Assembly: GCA_014055465.1 (NCBI GenBank)
Contig: WIAF01000004.1
Location: forward strand, 248,001-312,000
DNA length: 64,000 bases
DNA from: Nitrospira sp. CR1.1
Lineage (GTDB): Bacteria; Nitrospirota; Nitrospiria; Nitrospirales; Nitrospiraceae
Direction of reading: 5' to 3'
Shown here: positions 37,594 through 64,000 of the stretch, one piece after another
Position numbering within the stretch: position 1 is the stretch's first letter
Layout of the letters: every line of letters starts with the position of its first letter
The notes under the pieces: model-generated
What the model was told of the DNA's origin: nothing
The model's input: only the letters and a program-made list of their open reading frames with translations
The model's database searches: none
Position numbers and translations under genes: made by a program

Positions 37594-37678
37594 CCTCGCC
37601 GCCCGCGATTCTTGTATAATGCCCGCCTGCAGCACCGTGTTCCACGACGTGCTCCACACTGACTCAACGGGAGGCCGC

Positions 37679-38440
37679 ATGACACCGGGCACCAATCGCA
37701 TGGTCGTTCTGACGATGTTTTCCTTCGCTTCATGGTGGGCTTCTGTTCCCTTAAACGCCTGGCCTGCTGAACCGACGGGAGACCCTGGCACAGGACTCGC
37801 CCTGGAACAGATCATCGAACGCTACATCCGTACCCATCCTGAAGTCATCGAACAATCCTTGCAGGCATTGGAAAACACACGGGCGGCCGAGGAGCAACAA
37901 CGGCAGAAAGCCGCCATCGCCACCCACCAGCAGGAGTTACTCAACGATCCGGACTCCCCGATCAGCGGAAACCGGACTGGTGACATCACCGTCGTGGAGT
38001 TTTTCGATTATCGCTGCGGGTATTGCAAACGAGCGGCGTCCGCGCTGACCGAGCTACAACAACGGGATACCGGCATCCGTGTCGTGTATAAAGACTTTCC
38101 GATTCTCGGCGAGACGTCCGAACTGGCCGCCAAAGCCGCGTTGGCCTCACATCGACAGGGGAAACACCAGGCTTTTCATGAGGCACTGCTGGCAATGAAG
38201 GATGATCTCACGAAAGAACACCTGTTTCGGATTGCCCAGACGGTAGGCCTGGATGTGAGTCGGCTCGAGGCGGATATCAACAGGCCGGAGTGGCAAACGG
38301 TGATCGATCGCAACCGCAGCCTCGCAAAGACCCTCGGCATCACCGGCACCCCAGCGTTTATCGTCGGCACCGAGTTGGTACCAGGGGCCATGGATTTGAA
38401 GATGCTGCAGAGCCTGGTGGCCCAGGTACGCGGGAGATAA
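37679..38440 (+). CDS. DsbA-family exported thiol:disulfide oxidoreductase
   Basis: From ATG 37679 (GGGAGG upstream) the 253-aa protein has a signal peptide (~residues 8-30), a helical/charged N-terminal linker (~40-90) and a thioredoxin-like domain. The active site is Cys113-Gly-Tyr-Cys116 in FFDYRCGYCK, with cis-Pro loop TGTPAFIVG. This layout (N-terminal extension then DsbA fold) is that of ScsC/BdbD/DsbA-like proteins. It would oxidise or isomerise disulfides in the periplasm, possibly of the adjacent copper proteins; that link is inference from position only. Confidence 0.9.
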   Translation: MTPGTNRMVVLTMFSFASWWASVPLNAWPAEPTGDPGTGLALEQIIERYIRTHPEVIEQSLQALENTRAAEEQQRQKAAIATHQQELLNDPDSPISGNRTGDITVVEFFDYRCGYCKRAASALTELQQRDTGIRVVYKDFPILGETSELAAKAALASHRQGKHQAFHEALLAMKDDLTKEHLFRIAQTVGLDVSRLEADINRPEWQTVIDRNRSLAKTLGITGTPAFIVGTELVPGAMDLKMLQSLVAQVRGR

Positions 38441-38637: not shown

Positions 38638-41600
38638 CTATTGGATGGGGTTCGACATGCGGGAGACAATGGGATCTCCCGCCTCTGACCCCGCCCGCTT
38701 GATCGAAGGCGCCTGCTGGCTCAACGGGAGGATTCGCTGGTCATCGGTGGGCAACACCTTCAACAGACCCCATTGACCCGATTGGGCATAGGGCAATCGC
38801 TGATTGCTCCAGACATAATCACCCGGCAGACGGAAACTTCCACCTGCGGCAGGGATAAAGGCATCCAGCGTTTCCGACGCTGAGAACTCCACGACGCTGA
38901 TTTGGTCGGCGCCGCGCATGAAGGGCTCAATCGGCCATTCATGTTTCTCCACACTGAACATGCCGTTCTGCTCATTGCTCGCGCCGAACACATGGATGCG
39001 CACGGGATCTCCCGCATGCGCTTCGATGAGCGGCGTGGCGATGCTCTCCGGCTTGTCCACCGAACAGGGCTGGAACACCCTGCCGAGAGTACAACCGGTC
39101 GATTCACGGAATTTATAGGGCTCCGAACGGTAATTGACGGCCGTCAGTCCCGCCGTGTTTTGCACGTAGGGCATGAAGCTCGTCCCAATGATGTTGTCTT
39201 CGTCTTGGAAGAACAGGGCCACATCGCGGTAGTTCTGGCGATGTTCATAGCCCTGAATCGTCCGATCCACAATCACATCGGCGACCCAGCTGTTCTTCGT
39301 GGAAATATCCGCACCGGTCTTCGGATCGCGATAGGTCGCCCCCTTGGGCCCGATCACAATACCGCCGTACAGTCCGTTGCGGGGATTGGTCATGACATTC
39401 CCCCAATCCCACACCAGGGACGCGGTCTCTCCAATGAACGGATCGGCATAGTAGGTATAGACGCGGCTCTCACCCGGAGCGACGGTCTGCTCGCCAGGAT
39501 TGTGACCGACGTTCGCGCCCAGGGAATCCTTCGGGTCAAACGCCAGGCCCAGCGCCGAGAACGACGCCCGGCCCTGCTTCATCTTATTGCTCAGCTTCAC
39601 CTTCAAACAGTCCCCGACGTTCGCGCGCAACGTCAGCGGCATCGGCTGGAGGCCGGATGCCACCGTCGCGACATCCTCATCCAAGACGTAAATCTTGGCC
39701 TCGGGGTTGACCATCTGGATGGTCCGCTCGAAATCGACCTCGATGGAATCCGGGGCCTTCGGGTTCAACTTCATCGACGGGAAATCGATCGCCGACACAT
39801 TGAAACTCTTCACCGGCGCATCGGCAGGACACACCGCCGGGGCCTTCGGAATTTCGTTCCGGCCGCTATACCCGGCAGGCAACTTCTGCAGATCCGCCAC
39901 GTCCTTATCGAGGACGCGCAAGATACCCCAGGCGCCTTCCGAGAATTTTGACGAACGACCGTTGAAATGGATGTAGTCGCCCGCCTGCAGTCGCGGTCCA
40001 CCGGCTTGCGGAACGACGAGGTCGTATCGTTCTGCAATACCGACATGGATGGAATTCTTCCGGTTCGCATCGCCGGCATACCGCTCTGTCAGATAGGTAT
40101 GACCGGACAGCGTCCAGACCATGCTTTCATTGGTCATGGTCTGCAGCAACCGGAACACGACCGTGTCACCCAGGTAGGCTCGCACCATCGGGGTGTACGG
40201 ATCGCCGTGCACGGTGCTGCTGAAGAGCTTCGAGGGATCCGGATTCGCCTTCAGGCGTCCGCTGATCGGCTCCGCCCTGAAGTTGAGACTGCCGCCCGTC
40301 GTATGGGTACCGCCGTTCAGGAACGGCATCGGCGTCATCTTGATATGGTCAGGAATCGGGAATGAAATGGTCTTCCCCGCTTCCAGGGCAACTTCCACCG
40401 GCTGGCCGGGAGGATTGCCCGCCGTCACTATGTTGATCGTGTGCGGCACACTGTCATTCAACTGCACCAGCAATTCACGGAAGCTGCCGTTCACCCCGTA
40501 GCCCACAGGCTCGGCGGTGCGGATGTCGGCCAACGGACCGCTCCGGATCGGCGCTCCGGTCTTCGGATTGTGATACGTCGATCCGACCGGCTCAACGATC
40601 ATCGTCCCGAATCCACCGTGGCCCCAGGTGATCCGGCCCAACGCATGGTCGTGCCAGAACACCGTGCCCACATCGGAATCCACCCAGAAACGCTGCCGGA
40701 CAAATTCCACCGTCACGATATCCTTCACAGGATGATCGTGTTTCAACGGCCGCACGAGGGTGATCTCGTTGCCCTTGATCGACTGGATCCGCCCGACTTC
40801 GTTCCCGCCGACGTTATCCGCGCCGATCAGGATCTCAATGCCCGGATGGTATTGCGCGGCGTTCTTGAGCGTGATCACCCGATCGCCCTTCTTCCCCGCC
40901 TTCGTGAAGATCGTGTTCAACGGCAACGGCAATCCCTTGTCTGTCTTTTTTTCCAGCATGGTGAACGGGCGCACCGACTGTTCGTTCGAGAACCCGGTGA
41001 TCACGCCGTCGGACGACTGGTTGTCGAACTGCAGGAAGTGCCAATGGGTGTTGACCTTCGAGGCGTGGAAATTCCCGAAGTCATCGTCATCCCACTCGCT
41101 GGTCAACATCCAATCGACGCAGTCATAAATGTTCGACCGCACGACCAACGGGAATCGCAGGTCGTTATTCTTCCGAATGGCTGCTTCCTCTTCATGCAAG
41201 ACATAGATCAACCCGCCTTCATCCATGATGGCCGGCGTGTCGCCTTGTTTGTCGGCGAGCATCATCGGCGTATGGATAAAGTGCACGTTGTATTTCTTCG
41301 AGCCGGCATTCTCCGGACACAGGCTCCAACGTCCGTTCTCACCCGGCTTGGCCGGATAGGAACTCGGCTGGCCGTCCTCATCGAGGTGAATCATCTCCAG
41401 CCAGGGAGACGGATTGTGCCCCTTCGAGAACGGCACGCGGCGGCCGAAGTGCGGCTTCAAGTGCGGCCAGGAGACCTTCCCGGTCAACGGCTCGAACACG
41501 ATCGGCAGCCGCTCGCCCGGATGAGTCGATTGATACCGCGGATTCGGCACCGTATTCTCAGGCTCGGTCATGGCGCGATTGCCCTGCCAGTTCCAATTCA

Positions 41601-43521
41601 GCACGGTCGCGTCATAGGACCTGGTCTGATCGCGCTCATCCTTCTTGTGGCCCGGAAGACCCTGCGGCGGGAACTGCATATCGACCCAGTCCTTGATGGT
41701 GACGATGGCCGGATCGGCCTTCCAATCGGTCTTGCCCTTCTCCACGATCTTGAATTGCTTACCGAACCAATCGACGGTCTTGCCGATCAACTCGTCGGAC
41801 GTGACACCCACCTTGATGCGGCCCTTGCGGTCCGGCAACTCCAGCAGGTCCGGCATCACGTCATTGTGATTCGCACCCTGCTGAATCGTGTTGTACACGC
41901 GCCAGTATCCCCACATGCCCGCAATGTAGTGATGGGCCACGTGGCAGTGGAAGAGGAAGTCTCCGGCCAACTGCTGACAGAGACCGGAGCCGCACTCGGT
42001 CTCCAGGTCCATGGTCTCGGACGGCCCGATGACTTCCACGTCGACCCGGTCGGACTTCGTCCGGATCACGGGATATTTCACGGGACCGTTCTTCGCCGCA
42101 TGCCACAAGGGCATTTCGTCGATGGCTCGCGGGCTCCGCGGCCAACGAATCGCTCCGCCGTGCGGATGGTGCGAGTGGAACACTTCTGAGCCACCGTGCA
42201 CCAGCCGGAACTTGGCCGGGTCGCCGAGGTAGCTGCGTGGAATGGTCGTGGCCGGGTCGCCGAACGTGTAGGCGCTGTAGGCCATCGACTCATCCTCGAA
42301 GCCGAAGTATTCGTGCTGCGTCTGCATATTGTCCACGCCAAACGGCTCGCTCCGGTAGTTCAGCGCGCGAGCCACGGGACGATACACGTCGGTGAGCGGA
42401 TCGCGCTGCGGGATGAAGTCGCCCTTCTTGTTTAGCGGACGAAAGGCTTCGTCGCCGACTTCATGATAGAACAACACGAATTCCCGGAAGTCCGGGCCGC
42501 TGCCGTTCTTGATGATCGCCTGCCAGCCGCTCTTGGTCGGCTGAGGATCACCGGTGCCCAGCGGCTCGAGGTATTCAGACCCCTTCGGCTCGATCACGAA
42601 AGATCCGAAGAGGCCCATCACGGTCAACTCGCGATCATTGCTGTAGGAATGGAACTGGCGGCTGCCCTCCTGCTGAGTGGGCGGGATATACCATTCCATC
42701 TCCACGACCTTGCCCTTGGCGGCAATGCTGTCGGGATTGGTGGTCGTGGCCGGCTGTCCCGTAGCCGACATGACCATGCTGGACCCATGGATGTTCAGGC
42801 TGACTTCCTCATCACCCTCCAGCTGATTGCGGAGGGTCACCTTCACGCAATCGCCCTGATTGCCGCGAAGAACGAGTGGCTGAATGAATTGGTTCTGCAA
42901 CCCGTTTATGACGCCGCCCGGATCGTAGCCATCCTTGTCCCGGGCCTCTTTATTTTTGGCCTCTTCGGCACGGACCTTGTCGATATTTTCGGTCAGCGTG
43001 TACATGTAGCCCGGATAGAAATCGAGCCACATGTTCAAGGTGATTTCCACATTGATCGCCGACACGTCGTAGCTGCGGACCGGCGCACTCAGGGGACACT
43101 TCCCGCCCCTTGACGAGACCGGCTCAGCGGCGCTGTTCGACATCAACAATAAATCCTGGTTCCCGGCGCCGTACTGATGCAACATGTTGACGTTGTTGTA
43201 CTGGCCGCCTGTGCGCTGCACCTCGGCATCATGGGCCAACTGCTCGTTGATCTTCTCCATAATGCGCTGGTGCTGACGCTCCATCATCGCGGTCCGCTCG
43301 ACATGACCTTCCTGCGCATCCTCGATGATCGTCTGGCCCTTCAACTGCTCAGCCCATGCCGGCTGATTGTGCACAGCCGTATGCACTTCCGGGGGCGCTG
43401 CCGAAGCCACTTGGAACGCCCCGACGCAGACCGATGGAAGCATGACCCCTAACAGGAGCTTCCAGGCCGCTTGGGACCTGCGACGACTGAGTTTCCTAGG
43501 CCCGCTACGTACCGATCTCAT
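38638..43521 (-). CDS. Giant exported multicopper oxidase with permuted copper motifs
   Basis: From ATG 43521 (AGGAGG eight bases upstream) the product has 1627 aa with a signal-like N-terminal segment (~residues 18-40). All four multicopper oxidase motifs are present but in the order 3-4-1-2: HSHHPH (His449, 452, 454), HCHVAHHYIAGM (His525, Cys526, His527, His531, Met536), HWH (826-828) and WHDH (957-959). The last ~600 residues add further cupredoxin-like domains without trinuclear ligands. Size and domain number resemble six-domain oxidases such as MnxG-type manganese oxidases. The substrate (Mn, Fe, Cu or organic) is not determinable. A sigma-54 promoter at 43748-43763 drives it. Confidence 0.9.
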   Translation of the reverse strand: MRSVRSGPRKLSRRRSQAAWKLLLGVMLPSVCVGAFQVASAAPPEVHTAVHNQPAWAEQLKGQTIIEDAQEGHVERTAMMERQHQRIMEKINEQLAHDAEVQRTGGQYNNVNMLHQYGAGNQDLLLMSNSAAEPVSSRGGKCPLSAPVRSYDVSAINVEITLNMWLDFYPGYMYTLTENIDKVRAEEAKNKEARDKDGYDPGGVINGLQNQFIQPLVLRGNQGDCVKVTLRNQLEGDEEVSLNIHGSSMVMSATGQPATTTNPDSIAAKGKVVEMEWYIPPTQQEGSRQFHSYSNDRELTVMGLFGSFVIEPKGSEYLEPLGTGDPQPTKSGWQAIIKNGSGPDFREFVLFYHEVGDEAFRPLNKKGDFIPQRDPLTDVYRPVARALNYRSEPFGVDNMQTQHEYFGFEDESMAYSAYTFGDPATTIPRSYLGDPAKFRLVHGGSEVFHSHHPHGGAIRWPRSPRAIDEMPLWHAAKNGPVKYPVIRTKSDRVDVEVIGPSETMDLETECGSGLCQQLAGDFLFHCHVAHHYIAGMWGYWRVYNTIQQGANHNDVMPDLLELPDRKGRIKVGVTSDELIGKTVDWFGKQFKIVEKGKTDWKADPAIVTIKDWVDMQFPPQGLPGHKKDERDQTRSYDATVLNWNWQGNRAMTEPENTVPNPRYQSTHPGERLPIVFEPLTGKVSWPHLKPHFGRRVPFSKGHNPSPWLEMIHLDEDGQPSSYPAKPGENGRWSLCPENAGSKKYNVHFIHTPMMLADKQGDTPAIMDEGGLIYVLHEEEAAIRKNNDLRFPLVVRSNIYDCVDWMLTSEWDDDDFGNFHASKVNTHWHFLQFDNQSSDGVITGFSNEQSVRPFTMLEKKTDKGLPLPLNTIFTKAGKKGDRVITLKNAAQYHPGIEILIGADNVGGNEVGRIQSIKGNEITLVRPLKHDHPVKDIVTVEFVRQRFWVDSDVGTVFWHDHALGRITWGHGGFGTMIVEPVGSTYHNPKTGAPIRSGPLADIRTAEPVGYGVNGSFRELLVQLNDSVPHTINIVTAGNPPGQPVEVALEAGKTISFPIPDHIKMTPMPFLNGGTHTTGGSLNFRAEPISGRLKANPDPSKLFSSTVHGDPYTPMVRAYLGDTVVFRLLQTMTNESMVWTLSGHTYLTERYAGDANRKNSIHVGIAERYDLVVPQAGGPRLQAGDYIHFNGRSSKFSEGAWGILRVLDKDVADLQKLPAGYSGRNEIPKAPAVCPADAPVKSFNVSAIDFPSMKLNPKAPDSIEVDFERTIQMVNPEAKIYVLDEDVATVASGLQPMPLTLRANVGDCLKVKLSNKMKQGRASFSALGLAFDPKDSLGANVGHNPGEQTVAPGESRVYTYYADPFIGETASLVWDWGNVMTNPRNGLYGGIVIGPKGATYRDPKTGADISTKNSWVADVIVDRTIQGYEHRQNYRDVALFFQDEDNIIGTSFMPYVQNTAGLTAVNYRSEPYKFRESTGCTLGRVFQPCSVDKPESIATPLIEAHAGDPVRIHVFGASNEQNGMFSVEKHEWPIEPFMRGADQISVVEFSASETLDAFIPAAGGSFRLPGDYVWSNQRLPYAQSGQWGLLKVLPTDDQRILPLSQQAPSIKRAGSEAGDPIVSRMSNPIQ

Positions 43522-43747
43522 GAGACCCACCTCCTATTGAAACCATACAACCTCCGCATCCTCACCCTCTGCCATCGAATGATCGCCGCGCGCGGTGCAA
43601 GCCCGTGAAGGCCTGCACCTCATGGAGTGGAAACATCAGGAGGCCGGTCCTTCGGTTTCCACACCCTTGATTCGCGACAAGGAGACGATGGCGCACTCAT
43701 CACTGCGCATGAAAAAGCAATGCGCACAAAAAGACGGTCGACACTAG

Positions 43748-43763
43748 AGCAACTCTCGTTCCA
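43748..43763 (-). promoter_or_regulatory. Sigma-54 (-24/-12) promoter of the multicopper oxidase gene
   Basis: On the minus strand CTGGAACG-N4-TTGCT matches the sigma-54 consensus YTGGCACG-N4-TTGCW at all but one position, with correct GG/GC spacing. Transcription would start near 43736, giving a ~215-nt leader before ATG 43521. The only gene downstream in that direction is the multicopper oxidase, and an NtrC-type activator is encoded next door. Confidence 0.7.
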
Positions 43764-43833
43764 GATCGACCGAGACCGGAAACTTAGACTTTGTGGGAAA
43801 TTTTCGACTGCAGCAGGGAGAGGAGAAATAAAA

Positions 43834-43853
43834 ATGGGGCGACGACGCCCCAT
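43834..43853 (-). terminator. Intrinsic terminator after the sigma-54 response regulator gene
   Basis: ATGGGGCG-ACGA-CGCCCCAT is an 8-bp stem with a four-base loop. Read leftward it is followed by TTTTATTT, so it ends the regulator/kinase transcript coming from 44014-47441 and separates it from the sigma-54 promoter of the multicopper oxidase. Confidence 0.7.
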
Positions 43854-43917
43854 CAAAAAACGGAGATCATCACAACGACATCGAATTCAAAGGCGATAGA
43901 GGAGTGTCTGAAACATT

Positions 43918-43932
43918 TGTCCCAATGGGACA
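43918..43932. promoter_or_regulatory. 15-bp palindrome, candidate enhancer site for the NtrC-type regulator
   Basis: TGTCCCA-A-TGGGACA is a perfect inverted repeat located about 160 bp upstream of the sigma-54 promoter core (43748-43763). This is the usual distance for upstream activator sites of NtrC-family proteins. It lies 82 bp beyond the stop codon of the regulator gene itself. Confidence 0.55.
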
Positions 43933-44013
43933 TCGACGCCCCATCTGGAAGTCGAGGGAACGGCCCGAATCAGGCATCGTGAATACACACGGTGAGTCGT
44001 GACAGGAACCGGA

Positions 44014-45432
44014 TTAGGAACGTTCGCGCAGCCCATGCTTCTTGACCATCCGCTCGATGGTCTTCCGATCCACTCCGGCTTCCCGGGCGGCTCGCCCCAT
44101 GTGACCGTCGTTTCGTTTGAGGAGTTCGCTGAGAAAACTCCGCTCGAATGTCGTGACCGCCGCCTGCTTCGCATGTTTGAAGGAGCCCGCCTCCCCAAAC
44201 CCCGTGTCGTCAACCACAGCCTGGCGCAGGCGTTCGGGCAAATGCGCGCGTGTAATCAGCGGGCCATCAGCCAGCACGGCAGCCCGCTCGATGACGTTTT
44301 GCAACTCGCGCACATTCCCCGGCCAGGCATATCCACACAGCAACTCCGTGGCCGAGGAGTCCAGGTTCGGCACGAATCCAAGGGCCCCACCCTGCTGCTT
44401 CATGAATCGCCGCAAAAATTCTCGCGCCAGAATGGGAATATCCCCTTCCCTGCTCCGCAACGGCGGCAACACGATCGGAATGACATTCAGGCGGTAATAG
44501 AGGTCCTCGCGGAATTCTCCCCGCCGGCAGGCGGCTTCGAGATCCTGGTTCGACGCCGCGATCACCCGCACATCAACATCCAAAAACCGGATGCCGCCGA
44601 CCCGGCGCATCTGCCGCTCTTGCAGGACTCGCAGCAGACGCGACTGCAGGGTCTGGCTCATCCCGCTGACTTCGTCCAGAAAGACCGTCCCGCCCGCCGC
44701 CACTTCGAACAATCCCGGCTTCGAGACATGCGCACCGGTAAAGGCGCCCTTCTCATGGCCGAACAGTTCCGATTCCAGGAGCGTATCAGGCAACGAGACG
44801 CAATCCACCGGGATGAAGGGGCGCTCCGCCCGTAGACTGGCATCGTGAATCGCCCGCGCGACGAGTTCCTTCCCCGTTCCGCTTTCCCCATAGACCAGCA
44901 CGTTAGAATGTGTGGGGGCCACCTTTTCGATCAAGCTGAAGACCGATTCCATGGCCGGACTTTCCCCGATCACTCGAGACAATCCAGCCCGCTTCTCTGA
45001 ACGCACTTGCTCGACAGGAGGCGGCACTTCGATGCCCCCGGATTGCCTCGCAGCCGCCGAGCCATTCTCACCGAACGCGCGACGAGCAACTTGCACAAGG
45101 TCGGAGCTGGTAAAGGGTTTGGTAATGTAATCGAAGGCGCCATAGCGCATCGACGTCACCGCGGTCTGCACGGTGGCATGCGCCGTCAACAGCACCACGT
45201 GGACAGAGGGATCCATCCGTTTGGCTGCAGCCAACACTTCAAGACCGTCCAGCTGCGGCATACGCAAATCCGTCAGAATCAATCCCGGCCGCTCGCGCTG
45301 AATGAGATCCAATGCTCGAGCCGGATCACATTCGGTCAGACAGTCATAGGGCACGCGACTCAAAATCCTTCGGCAATTGTCCAAGGCATCCTGCTCGTCA
45401 TCGACGATCAGAATTTTTCCTGCAATCCCCAT
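44014..45432 (-). CDS. NtrC-family sigma-54-dependent response regulator
   Basis: The 472-aa protein has a receiver domain (acidic pair Asp11-Asp12, phospho-acceptor Asp55 in LILTDLRMPQ, TAHA and KPF motifs). An AAA+ activator domain follows with Walker A GESGTGKE, GAFTGA (contact with sigma-54), Walker B TVFLDEVSG and the R-finger region. A Fis-like helix-turn-helix ends it (GRAAREAGVDRKTIERMVKKHG). AAGGAG precedes ATG 45432. It overlaps its kinase gene by 25 bp. A sigma-54 promoter and a palindrome between this gene and the multicopper oxidase make that oxidase its most likely target. Confidence 0.97.
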   Translation of the reverse strand: MGIAGKILIVDDEQDALDNCRRILSRVPYDCLTECDPARALDLIQRERPGLILTDLRMPQLDGLEVLAAAKRMDPSVHVVLLTAHATVQTAVTSMRYGAFDYITKPFTSSDLVQVARRAFGENGSAAARQSGGIEVPPPVEQVRSEKRAGLSRVIGESPAMESVFSLIEKVAPTHSNVLVYGESGTGKELVARAIHDASLRAERPFIPVDCVSLPDTLLESELFGHEKGAFTGAHVSKPGLFEVAAGGTVFLDEVSGMSQTLQSRLLRVLQERQMRRVGGIRFLDVDVRVIAASNQDLEAACRRGEFREDLYYRLNVIPIVLPPLRSREGDIPILAREFLRRFMKQQGGALGFVPNLDSSATELLCGYAWPGNVRELQNVIERAAVLADGPLITRAHLPERLRQAVVDDTGFGEAGSFKHAKQAAVTTFERSFLSELLKRNDGHMGRAAREAGVDRKTIERMVKKHGLRERS

Positions 45433-47441
45433 GGTGCTCCTTCATGCACGCTCTCACCCAGGCTCACCGCAGGCAGATAGATCTCAAAGACCGCGCCCAC
45501 GTTGTTATTTCGCACCTCGATTCGGCCGCGATGGTCCGAGACAATGCCATAACTCAAAAATAATCCCAGCCCCGTCCCCTGGCCTGCCGGCTTGGTCGTA
45601 AAGAACGGATCAAAAATCCGATCCACAATCGCCGGCGGCACACCGGGCCCATTGTCCGATATGCTGATCTGTACCCACTCTTCTCCAGTGATCTGCACAC
45701 AGGCCGTACGAACCGTGACGACTCCCTGATCGCCACACGCCGTCACCGCGTCGATGGCGTTATTGATCACGTTTAGCAGCACGGTCTCCAATCGATCCCG
45801 ATCACCCATCACAGGGGACAACCCAGGCGCAAGATCCATGTCGATCCGCACAGAGAGCCCCGTCATCCGCTCACCTGCCATGGCCACACACGTACGTGCC
45901 ACGCAGTTGAGATCGAGCGGCTTTAGCATGGATACCGTCCCACGGGAAAACGTGAGGATGCTGCGCGTCACCCGGGAGATCCGTTCCGCTTGGGCGCGAA
46001 TGGTCACCAGATCGCGGGCGACCTCATCCGGCACGTTCGACTGCGCGGCATCGGCCTCCATGCATTCAATACGATTCAGAATGATGCCGAGCGGATTGTT
46101 GATTTCATGCGCGATTCCACTCGCCACCTTGCCCAATGTCGCCAATCGTTCGGACAACTCCAGCTTCCGCATCTGCCGCGTGATCTCCGCCGTTTTGTCC
46201 TCGACACGATGCGTCAGTTCGGTATTCAGCGATTCCAATTCTTGCCGCGACGCTCGCAACCGGTCAGCCATGCGGTGCACCGCCACGGCCAGTTCTTCAA
46301 ATTCATCGCCGGTGTGAAGATCGAGCGGCCCGTCGTAGGTGCCACGGCTGATCGCTTCTACACCGGTCTTGAGCACCTGAATGGGCCTGGCGATCCTCGT
46401 GGCAACGTAGCGGCCCATCGCCCAAAGCAAAGCCAACATCACCACCCCGATCAACGCGAGATTGCGTATCTGGTCGCGAATGGGGGCATAGGTTTCCTCC
46501 GGTTGTTGCCGCACGAAGACGTGCCAGGAATTGTCAGGCAGGCGCAGGCCCGTGACCGGCGCGTATCCCACCACCGTATCGGTCGCTCCATGGCCGTCGT
46601 CCTCGGCGATGCCCCAACCCGGGTTCGACGAAACGATCATCGCCATCAACTGGCCAGGTATCCGATGGGCGCGACGCGGCAGAATGGGACAGACCAGAGG
46701 TTGCCCGGCGGCGTCGAACAACATGGCATGACCTGTCTGCCCGATGCGAATCTCTTTGATCATCGCGAAGAGAGAATCGAACCGGTAGGATGCCTTAATG
46801 GCGCCGATGACCGCGTGCTGATGGTCGTCCAGGATGGGAACCGCAATATCGATGGTCTCTTCCGGCGAGCGAAACGATCCTTCCTGGCCAGGGATTAACC
46901 CGCTGACGTAGACGCGGTCGAGGCCTCCGGCTTGTAAGGCCTCCCACCAGGGTTCATGGCTGAGGAAGTAGTGATCAGGTTCCGAACTGGCCGCGACCAA
47001 TGCCCCATACCGGTCGGTGATCAGCAGCCCGACCATCTTGTCGCCGTCGCGGACTTTCGTCTCCAGAAGAAAACGCGACAATTCTGAATTCAACAGGCCG
47101 GCAGCGTTGTCGCGTCCTTTCTCCCATTCCGTCGCGCGGGCCTGAATCAGCCGCTGCGTGTCGGACCACTCGCCGGTGTAAGACAGATTGGCGGCTTCGA
47201 CCGGCTGACGAACCCGTAACGGCGCGGATGCAAGCAACCGTACCCCCTGCACTTCGCTCTGAACGAGCATGGTTAGACGATCGGCGGCCTGCTCGGCAAT
47301 CGCCTGAAAATTTCCGCCGATCACATCGCGAAGGGAACGCATGCCGGACATGTAGGCGAGAATGAGTCCGATCAGGAGCGGAATACAGCCCACCAGCACA
47401 ATGGCGAGAACAATGCGGCCCTTGATGGTACGAATCGTCAT
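45408..47441 (-). CDS. Membrane sensor histidine kinase with double-Cache sensor
   Basis: From ATG 47441 (GAGGTGGGG upstream) the ~677-aa protein has a first membrane helix ([20 protein letters not shown]), a ~290-residue periplasmic dCache-like sensor ([36 protein letters not shown]), a second helix and a HAMP domain. A coiled-coil, HisKA ([15 protein letters not shown]) and HATPase ([20 protein letters not shown]) end it. It would sense a periplasmic ligand and phosphorylate the overlapping response regulator. The ligand may be a metal or organic acid; the TonB/PepSY/multicopper oxidase context suggests metal, as inference. Confidence 0.95.
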
Positions 47442-47513
47442 TCCCCACCTCAGAGCGCACATTCTAAACAACCGGCGGAAGAAAACGCCACCTACCGTCA
47501 ATCCGGCCGATGA

Positions 47514-48320
47514 TCAAGACAGGGGTGGAACCTCTTTTGGTTCGGCCGTCGAACGGGCTAGGAGAGGCGGCTGTTCAGGGGCGAACGCGGCCACGCGCGA
47601 CCGGCGGGCCCGGGCACGATGAAAAAGCCATAAGGCGCCCCCGGAGAGACTCATCAGGAGAATCGGCACGCCAGGAATGTTCAGCAGAGTTTTCTCAAAC
47701 CCGAAGAAATTCAACTGGTGCAGCTGCATGACGGCAAAATGCACCCGCCGCCAGCGACCTTCGTCTTCGAGGATGTCCCCCGTCTGCCGGTCCAGCACAA
47801 TTTCGGTGGCATCGGCATTGTCGAAACGAACACGCACGGCATCCTGTGCGCGTTTCTTTTTGCGTGGTGTATACCGCTCGATGTCGACACCGATGACGGT
47901 CGCCGGCGCACGCACATATTGCTGTGCAATCACCGGCGCCAGCTCCCGCGAAATCGGCGACAGGCGATCACCGGTCATGGCGTCGAGCAAGAGTGTGGTG
48001 GACACTCCCTCGACGCGCAATTTGAGTTCGTAAAACAGGCGGCCGAAATCCGACCGCAGTACCACCTGCTCAATCAACGCCCGTCCGCCCACGGCCTCCT
48101 CGGCCATCCGTATTGCGCGATCGACCGGCAGCATGGCTGTTTCCAGCGGCGGGCCAGCCAGTGGCCGAAGCTTCTCCTTATAGTGGTCATCCCAATAGAG
48201 AAACTTCGCGTCCGTCCACAACAGGCCTGTCACGACGGAGAGTAATAGAAAACCCACGGCCCCCATACCCAACCAGCGATGCGTCAATCTCACAATTCGT
48301 TCAGATCCGCCGCGACTCAT
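47514..48320 (-). CDS. PepSY-domain membrane protein
   Basis: The 268-aa protein has an N-terminal membrane helix (MGAVGFLLLSVVTGLLW), a periplasmic PepSY-type part (ELKLRVEGVSTTLLLDAMTGDRLSPIS and the repeat VLDRQTGDILEDEGRWRRVHFAV) and a C-terminal helix (PGVPILLMSLSGGALWLF). PepSY-TM proteins often accompany TonB receptors and act in ferric reduction or siderophore handling at the inner membrane. It starts right after the DUF4198 gene stop and is 72 bp before the kinase gene, so the cluster is probably one transcription unit. Confidence 0.85.
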   Translation of the reverse strand: MSRGGSERIVRLTHRWLGMGAVGFLLLSVVTGLLWTDAKFLYWDDHYKEKLRPLAGPPLETAMLPVDRAIRMAEEAVGGRALIEQVVLRSDFGRLFYELKLRVEGVSTTLLLDAMTGDRLSPISRELAPVIAQQYVRAPATVIGVDIERYTPRKKKRAQDAVRVRFDNADATEIVLDRQTGDILEDEGRWRRVHFAVMQLHQLNFFGFEKTLLNIPGVPILLMSLSGGALWLFHRARARRSRVAAFAPEQPPLLARSTAEPKEVPPLS

Positions 48321-48321
48321 G

Positions 48322-49131
48322 CTATCGCTCCCCGGGGCGCTCGGCCCTCACCTGCAGTGCCAAGGTGCTGCGATGGCGCAACGCCTCATAGGCCGTCCCC
48401 TCGAACTCCCCGGGGGTCTTCTCGACGTGAATCATCTCCAGCACATAACGGCCTGGCCACAGCGGAGTGAAGGACACGATGCCATCGGCATCCGTTTTGA
48501 GCTCCTTGTCCCAGCCATTGGGCGCATGCACCAGCACCTGCGTCCCCGGGAGGCGTTGCCCATTAAAGAGGGCTTTCACCACGATCTCGCCACCCGGCCC
48601 TGGGGTCACGCGGCCCATCGCAAGATTCAACCCTGTGGTGAGCGGAATCAGGTCCAACGCCAACGGCGTCGAGTGGTCCCGCTCATGTTCATTAACCCGG
48701 CTCTCTTCCAGGCAAACGAAGTAGGTCCGGGCATAGAACATTGGCTTGACGATACCCAGATCATGCTTGCGTAGATCCTGAACCGGAGCTTTGGTTTGCT
48801 CGGCGACCACCGCATTCCGTCCCGGAACACAGGACGAGACGGAACCGGCAAAGTGGTTGACCTGCTTGGTCAGCGGCACGTCGGTCTTCCCGCGCTTCGG
48901 ATCCTGCACGCGCAAGGCGACGCCGTCGATCGAATCCAGCCGGCCGCCACGTTCCTCTCGCAGGAATTCGGCATACTCACCGAAATACACCTTCACTCCC
49001 TGGCCCACATCAGCCGGAGCCGTGGCGTCCATCTCCACCCAGACAAAATGGGCCTGTACAGGAGTAGGTTCCAACAGCCCTGCGATCAATACGATCCCCC
49101 ACAATCCACAATTGAAGATATTCTTATTCAT
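48322..49131 (-). CDS. Exported DUF4198-domain protein
   Basis: From ATG 49131 the 269-aa product has a signal peptide ending around VQAHFVW. The mature part begins with HFVWVEMDATAPADVGQGVKVYFGEYAEF, the DUF4198 opening, and ends with an Ig-like/SpaA-like domain (VVKALFNGQRLPGTQVLVHAPNG, KTDADGIVSFTPLWPGRYVLE). The family is found beside TonB receptors in metal or cobalt/nickel uptake loci. It lies 46 bp downstream of the TonB receptor stop and one base before the PepSY gene. Confidence 0.85.
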   Translation of the reverse strand: MNKNIFNCGLWGIVLIAGLLEPTPVQAHFVWVEMDATAPADVGQGVKVYFGEYAEFLREERGGRLDSIDGVALRVQDPKRGKTDVPLTKQVNHFAGSVSSCVPGRNAVVAEQTKAPVQDLRKHDLGIVKPMFYARTYFVCLEESRVNEHERDHSTPLALDLIPLTTGLNLAMGRVTPGPGGEIVVKALFNGQRLPGTQVLVHAPNGWDKELKTDADGIVSFTPLWPGRYVLEMIHVEKTPGEFEGTAYEALRHRSTLALQVRAERPGER

Positions 49132-49177
49132 AGGTGTCATTCCTTTCTCAATTCCGGCCAAAAGGCGCAGCGTCCCG

Positions 49178-51364
49178 TTAAAATCTCCAGGAGACCCCGC
49201 CGTAGAAATTCCGGATCTCACCCGGCTGGATGCCGAGGAAACTACCGGTGGTGCGTTGTGCAATGAATGATTCATCTGTGAGGTTGCGGACACCGGCAAA
49301 AATGGCCCACTTTGCCTTCGGCGGCGCATAATTGAGCCGCAGGTTCCAAATCGTATAGGAAGGGATGGCGCCGTTCGTGCCCAGCGCATTTTCCGTCTGG
49401 GTATTCGCGCCGTCGGTAAATTGCTGCGCGACATACATGGCATCGGCTTCGATCGACGCACCGGTCGGGTGGTAATACCCCACCAATCCGTAGAACGTCA
49501 TGCGCGGGGCATACGGCAGATCTTTCCCATCCGTCGTTCCAAACAGCGACTTCGGCCGCAACAGTGTGATGCTGCCCCTGGTGACGAAGCCTTGCAGCGG
49601 ACGGACGATTTCGCCCCAATCGAGGCTGACCGTACTCTCGATTCCCTCCATCAATGTCTTGCCGGCGTTGACGAACCGGCTGCCTTGCTGGACGATCTGA
49701 TTGCTGAATTCGGTGCGAAACAGCGCGACTTCCGCGCTCACACCGGGCACAAGGATCGACCGAATTCCGACATCCGAACTCAACGCACGTTCCGCAGAGA
49801 GGTCTTGTGTCGTTCCGCTCGTTGGATCCACCGCATTGGCGAAGGTCGGCGGCCGGAAGGTCGTATGGACATGGCCGAACAGCATGCTGTCCGGAGTGAG
49901 TTGATACTTGACCCCGGTCCCGTAGATCAGTCCTTGCGTCGTCTTATAGCCCTTGAAATTCCCTCCCGCAGGGGGAACGGCATGCATCGTCTCGCGGCTT
50001 TGATTGACCTGCTCCCACCGTATGCCGGGAGAAATGGTGAGGGCTTCGGTCAGCCGAATCGCCGTCTCCGTATACGCCGCGTAGGCCACCGACTCCAGAT
50101 CGGCATTGTTGGTCGTGCGGCTGATCTTCGAGCCCGCTGTACCGATGCCGGTGATGTCGGTCAGGCGCTCGGCGTGATACCGGACGCCGGAGGTGATCTG
50201 CTGCTCCAATCCAAACAGGGAAAATTTGAACTGATGTTGCGGCATGACGCCGAAGACATTGAACTTGCGCAAAAAGTTCGTGCTGGTCGAGAGCAAGGCG
50301 CCGTTGGCGGCCTGGTCCTGGATATACCAATTCCGTTCGAACACATTGCCATATACGATGATCTTGGCTGTGTTGTGGGCGTCGATCTCCCGGCTTGCCG
50401 TCACATCGATGGCTCCACGCTGCCCTTTGAATTCATCGTTCGGCTTGCCGGCCAGCGTGCGGTCGTTCCGGTATTGAGTGGGTGTAATACTTCCAGGCGT
50501 CTGCGTCGTTTCGTCGTACCAGGAGATGTTGGTCGTAATGCGGGTCCGATCGTCGGGGTTGGCTTCAAATCGCATCGTGAAATCATCCAACTGCGATTTA
50601 CTATGGTCTCGGAAACCGTCCGACTGGCGCCGGAGATACCCGAGTTGCGCGCCAAAATTCCCCCAATAGCCCCCGTACTGCGTGTCTGACTGAAACAAGT
50701 TAAAACTGCCGAACGTATTCGTGGTGGAAAACGTCGGCGTCGTGGGAATGCGTTTCTGAATGAAATTAATCAGCCCCCCCTGGGTATTGGGTGAATAGAG
50801 GACCGAGGCGCCTCCTTTGATCACTTCGATATGGTCGATCCGTTCGATCGGGACCATGTAATACGTCGAGGCATCGCCAAAGAGTGCCGGTTGTATGGGG
50901 ATATCGTCCAACATCAACAGAATATTTTTGCTGCGCCGGGGATCCATGCCACGGATGCCGATGTTGGGCCGCAACCCCTGGCCGTATTCGTCGAGCACGT
51001 TGACTCCGGGCACGCGCCGCAACATCTCGTCTGCGTTTTTCGGCCGGGCGCGCTGAATTTCCTCGCGAGTGACGACATTCACCGAGCCCGCAATATCCTT
51101 CACCGACTCCTGATCCGGCTCGTTTCGTTCATGCACGTCTTTCACCACCACTTCGGGAATCTTCACCGGCTTCGCCTTCGGCGATTCCTTCGGCTCGGCA
51201 GCCGCGTTCTTTTCCTCTACGCTGGCCCCTTCATCGGATACATGCTGGTCTGGAACAGACGTCTCAATCCCTTGAGCCTGCACAAGGGTACTCCAGCTAC
51301 AACCAAGTCCTATCGCCAACACCCACACAGCCCCTCCACCCATGCCCCAGATACGTCCCGCCAT
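49178..51364 (-). CDS. TonB-dependent outer-membrane receptor
   Basis: The 728-aa protein has a signal peptide (~residues 1-31), a TonB-box-like acidic linker, a plug domain (DEMLRRVPGVNVLDEYGQ, IGIRGMDPRRSKNILLMLDDIP, YMVPIERIDHIEVIKGGASVLYSPNTQGG) and a 22-strand barrel ending with aromatic Phe (GGVSWRF). The profile resembles FecA/ferric-citrate-type receptors, so a ferric chelate or another metal complex is the probable substrate. Its gene follows a structured leader (51423-51480) and a Com-like zinc-finger gene, and precedes DUF4198 and PepSY genes. Confidence 0.95.
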   Translation of the reverse strand: MAGRIWGMGGGAVWVLAIGLGCSWSTLVQAQGIETSVPDQHVSDEGASVEEKNAAAEPKESPKAKPVKIPEVVVKDVHERNEPDQESVKDIAGSVNVVTREEIQRARPKNADEMLRRVPGVNVLDEYGQGLRPNIGIRGMDPRRSKNILLMLDDIPIQPALFGDASTYYMVPIERIDHIEVIKGGASVLYSPNTQGGLINFIQKRIPTTPTFSTTNTFGSFNLFQSDTQYGGYWGNFGAQLGYLRRQSDGFRDHSKSQLDDFTMRFEANPDDRTRITTNISWYDETTQTPGSITPTQYRNDRTLAGKPNDEFKGQRGAIDVTASREIDAHNTAKIIVYGNVFERNWYIQDQAANGALLSTSTNFLRKFNVFGVMPQHQFKFSLFGLEQQITSGVRYHAERLTDITGIGTAGSKISRTTNNADLESVAYAAYTETAIRLTEALTISPGIRWEQVNQSRETMHAVPPAGGNFKGYKTTQGLIYGTGVKYQLTPDSMLFGHVHTTFRPPTFANAVDPTSGTTQDLSAERALSSDVGIRSILVPGVSAEVALFRTEFSNQIVQQGSRFVNAGKTLMEGIESTVSLDWGEIVRPLQGFVTRGSITLLRPKSLFGTTDGKDLPYAPRMTFYGLVGYYHPTGASIEADAMYVAQQFTDGANTQTENALGTNGAIPSYTIWNLRLNYAPPKAKWAIFAGVRNLTDESFIAQRTTGSFLGIQPGEIRNFYGGVSWRF

Positions 51365-63715: not shown

Positions 63716-64000
63716 CTATTGTCCGCCCTGTGTCGACGCACGGCTGGCCGAGCCTTGCAGATCCATTTCAAACATGACCGGACTGTCTGGGTTTTTCGGG
63801 TCGATCCGCATCGGCATTCGGTCGGCCGCCAGTTTCACCAGCGGGACCGCCACAATGTGGGGAGCCTTCTCCGATGGATTCGAATGGAGCGCAATACGAA
63901 CACTCTTCGGCCGCTGGCTGGGAGCCACCTGGGCGAGGACGTCCTTGCCCATGAATCCGACCAGCATGCCGCTTCCATCCGCCAGCTTGTGAACTTCATA
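63716..64000 (-). CDS. Protein of unknown function, 5' part outside window
   Basis: The minus-strand frame is open to base 64000 (YEVHKLADGSGMLVGFMGKDVLAQV at the edge) and ends after SASRASTQGGQ at 63716, so 94 C-terminal residues are visible. They include strands (SVRIALHSNPSEKAPHIVAVPLVKL) and a DPKNPDSP turn. I do not recognise the family and cannot judge the length of the whole gene. It is convergent with the small exported-protein gene at 63269-63607. Confidence 0.6.
   Translation of the reverse strand, partial: YEVHKLADGSGMLVGFMGKDVLAQVAPSQRPKSVRIALHSNPSEKAPHIVAVPLVKLAADRMPMRIDPKNPDSPVMFEMDLQGSASRASTQGGQ

Follow-up and report, generated by a model that had tools for sequence, protein, structure and literature searches.

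How is the gene for a giant multicopper oxidase controlled in Nitrospira, a group of dominant nitrite oxidisers? The question is raised by a 64,000-nucleotide stretch of the genome of Nitrospira sp. CR1.1 (contig WIAF01000004.1, positions 248,001 to 312,000), here called the window, in which such a gene lies next to the genes of a sensor kinase and a sigma-54 activator. The original prediction was that these genes and the DNA between them form a complete sigma-54 control region through which a periplasmic signal switches on a copper oxidase.

The oxidase and the adjacent regulatory genes

The oxidase gene (38638 to 43521, minus strand) was confirmed as an open reading frame of 1627 aa, encoding a Cu-oxidase_3 protein. 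The protein matches solved MnxG (9bxa) over five stretches (E=5.9e-81) and its cupredoxin stretches place it in the MnxG-related superfamily, whereas it scores 129.1 bits against the MnxG equivalog model NCBIfam NF041487, which has a curated cut-off of 3100. It is homologous to MnxG but not an equivalog, and only distantly MnxG-like. Given this relationship by sequence, copper is no more likely to be the substrate than manganese or some other metal. One C-type relative (G021:C12:138455-143308, minus strand; 59% identity) contains six in-frame stops, all TGA, and is either a decaying gene or an assembly problem. Convergent with the window oxidase is a gene (37619-38440, plus strand) for a DsbA-like thioredoxin with a weak match to ScsC_N (copper resistance).

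Upstream of the oxidase, on the same strand, lies an NtrC-type response regulator gene (44014 to 45432), which is overlapped by the gene of a dCache sensor histidine kinase (45408 to 47501). Domains and sequence bear out both assignments: the regulator combines a receiver, a sigma-54 AAA+ domain carrying the GAFTGA motif of an enhancer-binding protein and a Fis-type HTH (the HTH match being slightly below cut-off), and the kinase combines dCache_1, HAMP, HisKA and HATPase domains. An ortholog of the regulator (83-92% identity) occurs in 13 of the 15 same-genus genomes that possess an ortholog of the oxidase and in none of the four that lack it. In the same-genus ortholog search, no close regulator ortholog was recovered from G003, the genome of locus L018, and in this locus and L017, when compared to the window sequence, a PepSY gene is located directly upstream of the oxidase region. 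The dCache domain makes a periplasmic or extracytoplasmic signal for the kinase plausible. Genes for a TonB-dependent receptor (under every NCBIfam cut-off shown), a DUF4198 protein and a PepSY_TM protein (47514-51364, minus strand) run into the kinase-regulator pair, an arrangement which suggests a metal-uptake operon coupled to the oxidase.

The predicted sigma-54 promoter and its upstream sites

The predicted -24/-12 promoter TGGAACGAGAGTTGCT is located at 43748 to 43763 on the minus strand, 227 nt 5' of the oxidase ATG at 43521. It reads TGGAACG-N4-TTGCT and shows both the GG-N10-GC spacing and a TGGCAC-N5-TTGCW-like sequence. The pattern TGGMACG-N4-TTGCT is matched once in the window, against 0.02 matches expected from shuffles. 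For the analysis of conservation, the oxidase and its upstream DNA were compared among 19 same-genus genomes, the window included; the promoter core GGAAC-N5-TTGCTC is present in all 19 orthologous loci, at a distance to the ATG of 101 to 313 nt. From the position of the promoter, transcription is predicted to start at about 43737. A sigma-54-like match elsewhere in the window, TGGCCGAGCCTTGCA (63745-63759, plus strand), has a spacing one base under consensus.

Two copies of an inverted repeat with the consensus ATGGGRC-N6-GYCCCAT, 90-92 bp apart, were found upstream of the promoter in 19 of 19 loci, and the only exact matches to this consensus in the 4.44-Mb genome are the two window copies. 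These are putative activator site 1 (ATGGGGCGTCGATGTCCCAT, 43925 to 43944, minus strand) and putative activator site 2 (ATGGGGCGTCGTCGCCCCAT, 43834 to 43853, minus strand). Their arrangement is largely fixed, the repeats starting 180-184 and 90-93 bp before the GG of the -24 element in 16 of the 19 genomes, the exceptions being L005, where they are 9 bp closer, and L017 and L018, where they are 33 bp closer. The original prediction had instead singled out the 15-bp perfect palindrome TGTCCCA-N-TGGGACA (TGTCCCAATGGGACA, 43918 to 43932, a strandless element) as the regulator's site. The palindrome is indeed there, as the sole match in the window at up to three mismatches, and half of it is made up by one arm of repeat copy 1. 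However, it is exact in only seven of the 19 loci (the window being one of them), is one position off in a few more and decays in close relatives, as opposed to the repeats with their full conservation, and it was rejected as a conserved regulator site. The comparison supports the two repeats as the conserved sites.

A terminator scan identified a hairpin at 43833-43854 (minus strand), which had been taken for the terminator of the regulator gene. This hairpin coincides with repeat copy 2, and the T-run that follows it in the window is absent in L008 and L010-L015, while the repeat is retained there. As loss of the T-run leaves the repeat in place, the hairpin cannot be a terminator alone, and a terminator role, if any, would be secondary. 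The remainder of the prediction fared better: with an invariant promoter core and a co-occurring regulator, control of the oxidase by sigma-54 and the adjacent NtrC-type protein is supported at the level of comparative sequence data. What the “complete” control region had overlooked is a conserved structured RNA in the leader.

A structured RNA in the oxidase leader

The promoter position and the ATG at 43521 together predict a 217-nt 5' leader for the oxidase mRNA (43522 to 43737, minus strand). No upstream ORF within it is kept across relatives. From promoter to ATG, the relatives share two successive hairpins, the first of which has the loop region AGGACCGGCCUCCU, and two such units occur in tandem in L011, L012, L015 and L140. 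In the window the element, here referred to as A-type, extends from 43579 to 43681 on the minus strand. It comprises a hairpin P2 (GUGGAAAC..GUUUCCAC, 43627 to 43662), which carries a 12-nt core, GGACCGGCCUCC (43639 to 43650), and a hairpin P3 (GGUGCAGGC..GCUUGCACC, 43594 to 43619), in which 100% of cells are paired and three of nine pairs show compensatory changes. Across the A-type element as a whole, compensatory (two-sided) changes are seen at seven of 21 pairs. The A-type covariance model, R2, gives one match in the genome at E<=1, namely this element with 111.7 bits, the window sequence being part of the model.

The identical core is also found in the leaders of paralogous oxidases, both that of this genome's own paralog C and those of giant oxidases in other genera, where it sits inside a three-stem junction. 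A covariance model of this C-type form, R1, has matches in 129 of 147 Nitrospiraceae genomes, and in a phylum-wide sample it has matches in 114 of 396 genomes, all within two families of one order, Nitrospirales. A giant oxidase lies downstream of the element in all 30 loci checked. An alignment of 58 copies shows two-sided changes at 19 of 22 pairs, and 95.6% of cells are paired, compared to 85.5% in shuffled and 38.7-54.0% in slid controls. A covarying, conserved structure in the 5' leaders of a single gene family is what is expected of a cis-regulatory leader RNA. No Rfam 15 family matched, neither at the gathering score nor at relaxed thresholds, and no description of a Nitrospira oxidase leader RNA was found in a search of the open literature; the family appears to be new. 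The 12-mer GGACCGGCC was also considered as a genome-wide repeat or DNA operator and rejected, the examined non-oxidase matches being within or overlapping coding sequence and devoid of flanking stems.

The C-type model gives only 19 bits (E=0.057) on the window element, and what assigns the A-type to the family is the core it shares, the paralogy of its gene and the search run the other way, in which R2 finds D-type elements (L195, E=7e-6; L106, E=2e-5). The A and C types are therefore likely, though not proven, to share an ancestor. The RNA is dispensable in L017 and L018, which keep the promoter and both upstream sites but have lost the leader RNA.

A sigma-54 box is located upstream of 55 of 56 elements, against 0.95 expected from shuffles, and in 48 of the 56 aligned elements the distance from the GC of the -12 box to the first base of the stem P1 is 13-15 nt. 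Sigma-54 transcripts begin about 12 nt after this GC, so that the mRNAs should begin with the element. Sigma-54 control would in this way generalize to most giant oxidases of the Nitrospiraceae. Upstream of the oxidases of paralog C, G057 and G050 there are TGTCCAA..TTGGACA-like inverted repeats, which are probably the sites of other NtrC-type regulators. The nine nt 3' of P1 in 58 elements are 48% T, 27% C and 4% G, a pyrimidine-rich stretch such as might belong to a weak terminator or to a small RNA made by processing.

Predicted core pairing, alternative explanations and the proposed circuit

The core is complementary to the ribosome-binding sites of the oxidases' own genes. It includes CGGCCUCC, the complement of an unusual Shine-Dalgarno sequence, GGAGGCCG, found just 5' of the start codon in most C-type and f3 oxidase genes checked, and in A-type genes the site AGGAGGURGGUC pairs with GACC..CCUCCU of the core region. 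In the window the ribosome-binding site AGGAGGUGGGUCUC (43522 to 43535, minus strand) is partly complementary to the core, with a predicted duplex of -22.9 kcal/mol, whereas 29 other start regions of the window average -8.7. Five other A loci with the element give -16 to -21 kcal/mol, which brings six of the seven tested A loci having the element into the range of -16 to -23; the exception, L015, has two elements yet a weak match (-12.1 kcal/mol). In two loci that have lost the element the duplex reaches -12.9 kcal/mol. The D-type genes L190, L192, L194 and L195 possess the core and no extended complementary ribosome-binding site. About 100 nt downstream of its core, the leader of paralog C (L062, upstream of G000:C1:303752-308635) contains CGGAGGCCGGTC, which is perfectly complementary to this core over 12 bp. 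Taken as a sequence feature, the complementarity suggests translational control. Nested folding of whole leaders leaves the core in its own hairpin in seven of eight cases with little pairing to the ribosome-binding site. Folding of this kind does not predict a switch, and for the open state to form, some trigger, pseudoknot or protein would accordingly be required.

One alternative explanation is that the RNA binds a regulatory protein or acts as a 5' stabilizer of the mRNA, the complementarity being a by-product of a CCUCC core facing a GGAGG Shine-Dalgarno sequence. The location of P1, predicted to begin no more than a few nt from the mRNA start in 48 of 56 elements, would fit such a function, as would the closed core hairpin in nested folds and the near invariance of all 12 core nucleotides, which goes beyond the needs of anti-Shine-Dalgarno pairing. 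A by-product is, however, argued against by the extension of the Shine-Dalgarno sequence by CCG past GGAGG, which most C-type and f3 genes retain in an otherwise variable spacer, and we regard this explanation as possible though clearly the less probable one. Transcription attenuation, with P1 and the pyrimidine tail as a conditional terminator, would be in line with the T-rich, G-poor composition 3' of P1, but the tail is a mixture of C, T and A, P1 closes a large branched loop and the A-type element of the window has no such tail, making an attenuator quite unlikely. Least probable is that the sigma-54 layer alone is functional, with the palindrome as the regulator's site and the rest as background. 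The palindrome is perfect in the window and in seven of the 19 loci altogether, but other relatives lack it or have it in broken form while both repeats are kept in 19 of 19, and the strong covariation in the RNA is difficult to reconcile with background.

A further possibility is that the leader element is also a trans-acting RNA, the core GGACCGGCCUCC pairing with the ribosome-binding site of the B-type giant oxidase, a paralog. The core is exactly complementary to this site, AAGGAGGCCGGUCC-AUG, with a duplex of -29.4 kcal/mol, and the site itself, AAGGAGGCCGGTCC-ATG, is extremely conserved (G000:C4:63956-63971, minus strand, L061 and others); AGGAGGCCNGTCCATG occurs in 76 of 147 family genomes, whereas its reversed control occurs in none. 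In ten B leaders, the upstream 250 nt contain no cis partner of more than 6 nt for the B site. The promoter of paralog B is an exception to the sigma-54 boxes, having a sigma-70-like TTGACA-N17-TAATCT-like box, and its leader is without the element. On the other hand, co-variation of site and core, which was sought as proof of trans pairing, was not found: among g2 and g20 genomes, variants of the B site do not track those of the core. The B site is also retained in G044, where no element was detected, and both results count against pairing in trans. This additional role seems rather unlikely; if true, switching on the sigma-54 oxidases would switch off the housekeeping B oxidase, an RNA-driven oxidase swap.

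The explanation considered probable is a two-layer control of the MnxG-related giant oxidase of Nitrospira by sigma-54 and a folded leader RNA. In the first layer, the dCache kinase would phosphorylate the adjacent NtrC-type regulator, which, bound to the two ATGGGRC-N6-GYCCCAT sites at about 105 and 196 bp before the start, would activate sigma-54 polymerase at 43748-43763; conservation supports this layer well. In the second, the transcript would open with the leader, whose folded RNA hairpin presents the core GGACCGGCCUCC. Whether this core is enclosed by its own hairpin or pairs with the ribosome-binding site would be decided by a signal, which could be a metal, a metabolite, a protein or temperature. 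As the core is complementary to the ribosome-binding site of the oxidase, gating of translation by such mutually exclusive pairing is the most likely, as yet unproven, function of the RNA.

Sigma-54 control of such oxidases is not new in kind, as in Pseudomonas putida GB-1 IHF/sigma-54 promoters are predicted for the mnxG and mcoA genes, which require Mn and the MnxS1/S2-MnxR pathway (PMC11930936, PMC8218464). The two systems have in common large multicopper oxidases, predicted sigma-54 promoters and a two-component pathway, whereas Nitrospira has the regulator genes immediately 5' of the oxidase, an inverted repeat of another kind for activator sites, a structured RNA in the leader and an oxidase that is only distantly MnxG-like. 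The regulator resembles NtrC/AtoC-type activators in its Receiver-AAA+-Fis architecture, its GAFTGA motif and its two dyad sites upstream of GG-N10-GC, and differs from other such systems in that exact ATGGGRC-N6-GYCCCAT sites are confined to this one promoter in the genome. Similarly, the RNA is like orphan riboswitch candidates and leaders that sequester ribosome-binding sites in its covarying stems, invariant core, single gene family and complementarity to the ribosome-binding site, and unlike them in having no Rfam 15 match and in being limited to Nitrospirales in the phylum-wide sample.

MnxG-like genes in Nitrospira MAGs have been proposed as candidates for removing manganese in sand filters, Mn oxidation in Nitrospira being a hypothesis (PMC12070406), and the Ca. 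Manganitrophaceae encode two novel multicopper oxidases each (PMC9040806). For the giant oxidases, the locus offers a concrete, testable circuit consisting of kinase, regulator, two sites, promoter and start, together with an apparently new family of structured RNA that combines high coverage of the Nitrospiraceae with a single enzyme family. Should this RNA turn out to sense a metal or redox metabolite, it would show what the giant oxidases are for.
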